In this document: positions 10,862 to 12,544 of the stretch, one piece after another
Layout of the letters: each line of letters begins with the position of its first letter
Position numbering within the stretch: the stretch's first letter is position 1
Position numbers and translations under genes: made by a program
DNA from: Alphaproteobacteria bacterium
Lineage (GTDB): Bacteria; Pseudomonadota; Alphaproteobacteria; Ferrovibrionales; Ferrovibrionaceae
Assembly: GCA_017307375.1 (NCBI GenBank)
Contig: JAFKFH010000003.1
Span: forward strand, 496,001 to 560,000
Direction of reading: 5' to 3'
DNA length: 64,000 nucleotides
The notes under the pieces: model-generated
Database searches by the model: none
Seen by the model: the letters and a program-made list of their open reading frames with translations, nothing else
Told to the model about the DNA's origin: nothing

Positions 10862-11410
10862 TTGATCGGCTACCTCGCCGCGTCGCTGACCGGCGCCTGG
10901 CGGCTGGCACGGCTGAAACCGGACGGCTTCGCCTGGTTCGACCTGTCGGCCGACGGCTTCTGGCGCTCGTTCCTGGCCATGCCGGTGGCCGCGCCGCTGT
11001 TCCTCGGCTTCGTCGCCGCCCAGGCCGGCGGCGGCCCGCTCGATGCCGGCACCCTGGTCGTCCAGCTGCTCAGCTATTTCGTCGTCTGGTGCCTGTTCCT
11101 CGGGCTGATGGTGCCGTTTGCCCGCTTTTTCGGGCTGGGGCCGGGCTACGTGCCGTTCGTGGTCGCCTACAACTGGGCCCAGGTCCTGATGCTGATGCTG
11201 TTCCTGCCGCTGACGCTGCTGCGCGCGGCCGGCGTCATGCCCGGGCTGATGAACGTCGTGATCGTCCTGCTGATGGCGTTCGGCATGGTCTATGTCGGCG
11301 TGCTGGCCCGGTTCGGCCTGCGCGCCGACTGGCCGCAGACCGTCGCCGTGGTGCTGATCGAGATGGTCACGTCCTACGCGATTCCGGAACTGGTCGACGC
11401 CATCTTCTAG
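10862..11410 (+). CDS. small integral membrane protein, function unknown
   Basis: Predicted inner-membrane protein of 182 residues with about four or five hydrophobic spans (roughly 35-55, 65-90, 97-125, 130-150, plus a weaker C-terminal one). The start appears to be a TTG at 10862, one base after the dapE stop, implying translational coupling. I do not recognise a catalytic motif. Similar small membrane proteins commonly follow dapE in alphaproteobacteria, but I cannot assign a role. It ends in a hairpin that includes its own stop codon. Confidence 0.75.
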   Translation: MIGYLAASLTGAWRLARLKPDGFAWFDLSADGFWRSFLAMPVAAPLFLGFVAAQAGGGPLDAGTLVVQLLSYFVVWCLFLGLMVPFARFFGLGPGYVPFVVAYNWAQVLMLMLFLPLTLLRAAGVMPGLMNVVIVLLMAFGMVYVGVLARFGLRADWPQTVAVVLIEMVTSYAIPELVDAIF

Positions 11411-11482: not shown

Positions 11483-12544
11483 ATGACCGAATCCGCGACC
11501 AATGCCGTCCAGCGCAAGCTGACCACCCTGTTCTGCGCCGACGTCAAGGGCTACAGCGAACTGATGGGCCGCGACGAGGAAGGCACGCTCGCCCGCCTCA
11601 AGGCCTACCGCCAGGCGATGATCGGCCTGATCAGCCGCCATCACGGCCGCACCATCAATACCTGGGGCGACGGACTGCTGGCCGAATTCGCCAGTCCGGT
11701 CGAGGCGGTGACCTGCGCGGCCGAGGTGCAGCGCGAGCTGCGCTCGCGCAACGAGGCCGAGACCGGCCAGCCGGCGATGCTGTTCCGCATCGGCATCAAT
11801 CTCGGCGACGTCATGGTCGACGGCGACGATCTCTATGGCGAGGGCGTCAACGTCGCCGCGCGGCTGGAGGCGCAGGCCGAGCCCGGCGGCATCGCCATCT
11901 CGCGCACCGTCTACGACCAGGTCCGCAACAAGCTCGGCCTCGGCTTCGAATTCGTCGGCGAGCGCGAGGTCAAGAACATCGCCGACAAGGTCGAGGTCTA
12001 CCGCGTCGTGCTCGATGCCGAGGGCCGGGCCCAGGCTCAACCCCACGACCAGAAGCCCTACCGGCCGGCGGCCCCGCCGCCGCGGCCGGCCGAGGCGGCC
12101 GCGGCGCCCGAGGTGATGGACCGCCTGGCCTGGCAGCGCCGCATCTGGATGCGGCGGGCCTGGCAGGGCGGCACGCTGATCGTGTTCCTGCTGGCGATCA
12201 ACCTGATCACCAATCCCAATCGCCTGTGGGTGGTCTGGCCGGCGCTGGGCATCGCCCTGACGCTGGCCTGGTCGTGGCTGCACCGCGTCGGCTTCCCGGG
12301 CCGCGAGGCCCAGGCACCGGTCGGCGCGATCCGCATTAACGGCAACCACCGCTTCACCGAGGATTGCTGCTTCAGCGGCCGGATCAAGGGCAACGTGTCG
12401 GTCGATCCCGGCATCACCGTGCAGTTCTTCGGCCGCATCGACGGCAATGTCGAACTCAGCCCCGGCGCGGTGTTCGAGATGCACGGCCGCCTCGGCGGCA
12501 CGGTGATCGACAACGGCGGTTCGTTCCGGCCGATTTCGGGCTGA
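11483..12544 (+). CDS. class III adenylate/guanylate cyclase fused to a 2TM domain and a bactofilin-like tail
   Basis: 353 residues. Residues 10-176 are a class III cyclase domain, predicted to make cAMP (or cGMP). Metal ligands are Asp20 in LFCADVKGYSELM and Asp63 in NTWGDGLLAEF. DDLYGEGVNVAARLEA carries the base-selecting Asp116, Asn123 and Arg127, so it looks active. After a Pro/Ala linker (190-210) come two hydrophobic helices (228-247 and 251-266), a 2TM unit. Residues 280-350 have short glycine-spaced beta repeats (FSGRIKGNVSVDPG, FFGRIDGNVELSPG, FEMHGRLGGTVI), like bactofilin beta-helix turns. Converges on truA with a 35-bp gap. The tail could make a polymer-forming or localising module; that is inference. 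Confidence 0.85.
   Translation: MTESATNAVQRKLTTLFCADVKGYSELMGRDEEGTLARLKAYRQAMIGLISRHHGRTINTWGDGLLAEFASPVEAVTCAAEVQRELRSRNEAETGQPAMLFRIGINLGDVMVDGDDLYGEGVNVAARLEAQAEPGGIAISRTVYDQVRNKLGLGFEFVGEREVKNIADKVEVYRVVLDAEGRAQAQPHDQKPYRPAAPPPRPAEAAAAPEVMDRLAWQRRIWMRRAWQGGTLIVFLLAINLITNPNRLWVVWPALGIALTLAWSWLHRVGFPGREAQAPVGAIRINGNHRFTEDCCFSGRIKGNVSVDPGITVQFFGRIDGNVELSPGAVFEMHGRLGGTVIDNGGSFRPISG

Follow-up and report, generated by a model that had tools for sequence, protein, structure and literature searches.

The open reading frame at positions 11483-12544 of the window, i.e. the whole 64,000-nucleotide stretch of DNA that was analysed, encodes a genuine protein of three parts: a class III nucleotide cyclase, a hairpin of two transmembrane (TM) helices and a bactofilin-like tail. 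The join of cyclase, hairpin and tail is rare, and the protein constitutes a rare new combination of parts that are already known. With a probability of about 0.5, it is a membrane-bound class III cyclase, most likely making cAMP, whose tail is a stacking module that pairs or clusters the cyclase and may secondarily dock it on a bactofilin filament. Bacteria often possess many cyclases, and how their signals stay separate is unclear. If this interpretation is true, a filament-type module built into the cyclase itself would be a direct means of positioning cAMP synthesis within the cell. In a literature search, which was not exhaustive, no description of a cyclase-bactofilin fusion was found. 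The gene, its parts and the adjacent upstream ORF are as follows:

11483..12544, plus strand: whole gene coding for cyclase, 2TM hairpin and bactofilin-like tail, 353 aa plus stop.
11507..12010, plus strand: class III nucleotide cyclase catalytic domain, residues 9-176 (PF00211, 3mr7, AlphaFold2/Foldseek, residue counts).
12110..12289, plus strand: predicted membrane hairpin, helices 210-243 and 251-269, with WxxWP motif (PF13239, hydropathy, AlphaFold2, conserved W249/P253).
12323..12541, plus strand: tail, residues 281-353, predicted four-coil beta-helix with an 18-residue period (PF04519 below cut-off, AlphaFold2, VIA-align to 6ria, relatives).
10862..11410, plus strand: upstream ORF of 182 aa with a TTG start, hydrophobic multi-span membrane protein, no family match.

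The frame at 11483-12544 (plus strand) is single and unbroken, and its coordinates agree exactly with those of a previous sequence-only reading. That reading had described a cyclase with all catalytic residues, followed by two TM helices and a repeat tail; the three parts were recovered, whereas the complete catalytic set was not. The sequence AGAGG, which resembles a ribosome-binding site, stands a short distance 5' of the ATG. A frameshift or an artefactual fusion with a downstream gene was ruled out, since a single ORF includes the tail and a second genome has the parts in the same order.

A Pfam search matched residues 15-173 to the Guanylate_cyc catalytic domain PF00211 (E 5.4e-13) with 49.4 bits, which is above the curated cut-off of 21.9. 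The PDB entry 3mr7 was matched both by phmmer (E 5.5e-36) and by Foldseek (TMt 0.89); the latter search was performed with a full-length AlphaFold2 model that was built from an alignment of 13 sequences and displays pLDDT values of at least 90 across most of the cyclase domain. This model also matches the structures of Ma1120 and Rv1900c. The Pfam and phmmer results bear out the proposed class III domain. The metal-binding aspartates D20 and D63, as well as D116 and the transition-state residues N123 and R127, are all present. Canonical class III adenylate cyclases specify their substrate by means of a Lys-Asp pair (PMC4215837). Of this pair, the Asp is kept as D116, and the Lys position contains an Asn (N59). 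Among the aligned relatives, Asn is the commonest residue at this position (26 of 46 rows), and Lys is found in 12 of 46. Judged by these residues, the catalytic set is nearly, not wholly, canonical. As background, Rv1900c is a cyclase that works even though Asn occupies its Lys position. For the present protein, cAMP is a likelier product than cGMP, given that the Asp of the pair is retained and that adenylate cyclases make up most of the closest structures studied.

The cyclase domain is followed by a linker (residues 184-211) that is disordered in the AlphaFold2 model (pLDDT <50) and by two hydrophobic helices, which are placed at 210-243 and 251-269. Hydropathy of the protein peaks at residues 232-266. 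The match of the hairpin to PF13239 ('2TM') reaches 17.9 bits and lies below the cut-off of 24.8; the two helices are predicted all the same. Residues W249 and P253, which belong to the WxxWP motif, are nearly invariant across the relatives. Given a hairpin, cyclase and tail should lie on the same side of the membrane, presumably the cytoplasmic one.

Autocorrelation of tail residues 281-353 yielded one clear, strong period of 18 residues. From the sequence of the tail alone and without an alignment, AlphaFold2 predicted a four-coil beta-solenoid with a core pLDDT of 90-96. Using VIA-align, this model matched two structures of the Thermus bactofilin in the first and second place (6ria with Z 8.2, rmsd 2.1 and 71 residues; 6rib with Z 7.9) and Caulobacter BacA (2n3d) in the sixth, although a Z of about 8 counts as middling where repeat folds are concerned. 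With Foldseek alone, the tail model had no significant match; bactofilins were ranked first only by VIA-align. Thus, the structure prediction that the sequence-only reading had proposed as a check produced a beta-helix like that of the solved bactofilins, albeit in a predicted structure and with a middling Z.

The Bactofilin profile PF04519 matches the tail alone with 23.4 bits (E 7.4e-5) and the whole protein with 19.8 bits, both below the gathering score of 27.9. The match spans positions 7-62 of the 98 positions of the model, i.e. about the first two thirds and not the full domain. In Caulobacter BacA, the polymerisation-interface residue F130 sits in the C-terminal interface (PMC12448750); no stretch of the tail aligns with the F130 region. 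Compared to L055, a bona fide bactofilin that scores 83.5 bits with PF04519, the tail has an alignment score of 103, whereas shuffled tails average 25 (z 17) and none of 1000 shuffles scored as high; a sequence search matched the two with E 4.2e-7. The tail is related in sequence to this bona fide bactofilin, with a likeness far beyond chance. The profile-profile similarity to canonical bactofilins spans 30-44 columns only, and searches with the tail in PHROGs, in NCBIfam and in the PDB (phmmer) gave nothing useful. The proposal of a Gly-spaced, bactofilin-like tail is hence upheld by the 18-residue repeat and the likeness to L055, and not by the Pfam cut-off.

The closest relatives of the tail are stand-alone proteins of about 100 aa from plasmids of Rhizobium and Sphingobium (e.g. 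WP_012760564.1 and WP_007681980.1). Loci of such proteins are:

L112:1983-2285, L115:4001-4303, L116:3977-4297 and L117:3995-4516: bactofilin-like proteins of very small size, encoded on Rhizobium/Sphingobium plasmids; those scored lie under the Pfam cut-off for Bactofilin.

These proteins align with the tail across the same four coils and with the same glycine pattern; the eight invariant positions of the alignment are all solenoid glycines. Two of them score 16-17 bits with PF04519 and match the same part of the model as the tail. A profile of the group had the Thermus bactofilin as its best match in the PDB, which is still weak (E 0.057). WP_207600982.1 is annotated as 'polymer-forming cytoskeletal protein', the other stand-alone relatives as 'hypothetical protein'. 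Based on an alignment of eight sequences, we read the tail and the stand-alone proteins as a putative short subfamily related to bactofilins. The analysis also draws attention to bactofilin-like proteins of very small size as a group, found on plasmids and as tails, that lies under the cut-off of Pfam. The copies on Sphingobium plasmids adjoin tyrosine recombinases and toxin-antitoxin genes. A phage origin of the tail was also considered and rejected, as nothing matched in phage records (with the stand-alone relative from Rhizobium as query), in PHROGs or among viral contigs.

Proteins consisting of cyclase and hairpin without a tail are common in Alphaproteobacteria, including ten genomes of the sister genus. 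In several relatives (L006, L008, L013, L017, L018, L019), a second hairpin is found at the place of the tail. Tailed cyclases were sought in three overlapping draws of 385, 388 and 398 genomes, of which the best ten candidates per genome were scored, such that misses are possible. A tail joined to the hairpin was found only in the genome of the window and in one other (G239); among the genomes drawn from the order of the window, only the window's own contains it. The second case is:

G239:C98 (L086), near the high end, minus strand: second tailed cyclase, with a frameshift next to the contig end.

This frameshift may be a sequencing error, an assembly error or the mark of a broken gene. Both cyclases have tails that end at roughly the same coil, and the two tails can be aligned across four coils. 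In the phylogenetic tree, the window's protein groups with tail-less relatives (support 90/93) and the G239 protein lies outside that group; the two tails may go back to two separate gains, to a single gain followed by losses, or to an exchange of the tail. Two further proteins, L102 and L103 (from G095 and G379; about 415 and 460 aa), contain a cyclase-like domain that lacks several of the usual catalytic motifs and, behind it, two WxxWP hairpins connected by a charged linker. They look like degenerate cyclases.

The upstream ORF at 10862-11410 is located on the same strand between the cyclase gene and an M20 peptidase gene, which we take to be DapE-like. It had no match in Pfam or PHROGs and may be co-transcribed with the cyclase. 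None of the ten neighbouring ORFs of the window, including the M20 peptidase and truA, was matched near the cyclase in the 11-12 kb loci of five relatives, and none of the genes near 11483-12544 points to a bactofilin role. The host genome encodes two full bactofilins, which are possible partners of the tail. The start of one of them, MFSSSK, is similar to the peptide that has been described as targeting BacA to the membrane (PMC12448750).

In the favoured interpretation, the hairpin would hold the cyclase in the inner membrane, with the catalytic domain and the tail facing the cytoplasm. The tail would be a short bactofilin-related beta-helix that serves as a module for protein-protein stacking. 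Given that class III cyclases function as dimers and that beta-helices of the bactofilin type join at their ends, it is plausible that stacking of the tails would bring copies of the cyclase together and favour the dimer. In a secondary role, the tail may dock the cyclase onto the bactofilin filament of the host. Catalytic activity, product, membrane topology, self-association and cell placement are what we infer here for the 353-aa protein. In favour of this model we count the cyclase fold, the presence of most active-site residues and the cyclase-hairpin core conserved in many Alphaproteobacteria, furthermore the confident beta-helix of the tail, its structural matches to bactofilins and its relation to L055, and finally the second tailed cyclase in another order and the two host bactofilins. 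Counted against it are the score of the tail below the cut-off, the missing C-terminal third of the domain, the middling Z and the null result of Foldseek, as well as the profile-profile likeness of 30-44 columns, Asn59 and neighbours that do not point to bactofilins. It is improbable that the cyclase goes further and uses a bactofilin-type stacking domain of its own to form polymers at the membrane or to assemble together with the bactofilin cytoskeleton, such that cAMP is made in a fixed patch of the cell.

The sequence-only reading had suggested that the fusion could tie the synthesis of a second messenger to a polymer or to a site in the cell. In this case, the tail would dock the cyclase as a client on canonical bactofilin filaments and cAMP would be synthesized at a pole or another site, which we regard as rather doubtful. 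Membrane clients of bactofilins are indeed recruited via their own cytoplasmic regions (PMC12448750, PMC10945521), and the fold of the tail, its partial sequence match and the two bactofilins of the same genome are consistent with such targeting. However, the tail scores higher against the small stand-alone relatives than against the host bactofilin on contig C3 (118 versus 58), and bactofilins occur in every genome of the family, whereas the tailed cyclase is found in this one alone. Moreover, the part of a bactofilin that carries the known polymerisation residue has no counterpart in the match of the tail; since this match ends at position 62 and leaves the C-terminal part uncovered, the idea of anchoring to a polymer or a site is weakened. 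Membrane anchoring is already provided by the hairpin, a feature also of the relatives that have no tail.

It is also unlikely that the tail is a beta-helix that senses a ligand or binds a partner and in this way regulates the cyclase, rather than a cytoskeletal module. The C-terminal region of the family varies between nothing, a second 2TM hairpin and the tail, and the nearest relatives of the tail are free-standing plasmid proteins, both of which would suit a regulatory element; on the other hand, no conserved polar cluster of the kind expected at a ligand site was seen, and the eight invariant positions are all glycines of the solenoid. Least of all do we expect a chance extension or a recent accidental fusion that functions at most as a stable cap. 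The confinement to one genome of the order, next to a tail-less sister genus, and the fact that the sole other example lies at a contig end with a frameshift would agree with such an accident, but cyclase-hairpin proteins of two orders bear tails with about the same end point, and the tail of the window's protein has retained its repeat and a confidently predicted fold.

Among the closest known systems are the alphaproteobacterial cyclase-2TM proteins (e.g. L005, L022-L031), which share the domain order and the WxxWP motif of the window's protein, are about 50-60% identical to it over residues 5-265 and mostly contain an Asn at the substrate-Lys position. In contrast to it, they end after the hairpin or bear a second one and have no beta-helix tail. 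The G239 protein (L056/L086), from another order, shares the order cyclase, 2TM, tail, and its tail is 31-33% identical; its start is lost at the contig end and a frameshift splits its cyclase part, so that it may be broken or misassembled. The stand-alone plasmid proteins have the four-coil length and glycine pattern of the tail, but are free-standing and contain neither a cyclase nor a membrane part. With the bactofilins (PF04519; BacA 2n3d, Thermus 6ria/6rib), its best structural matches, the tail has the glycine-spaced beta-helix in common; unlike these, it comprises about four coils, covers 7-62 of 98 positions with a score below the cut-off and forms the C-terminal end of an enzyme, behind a hairpin.
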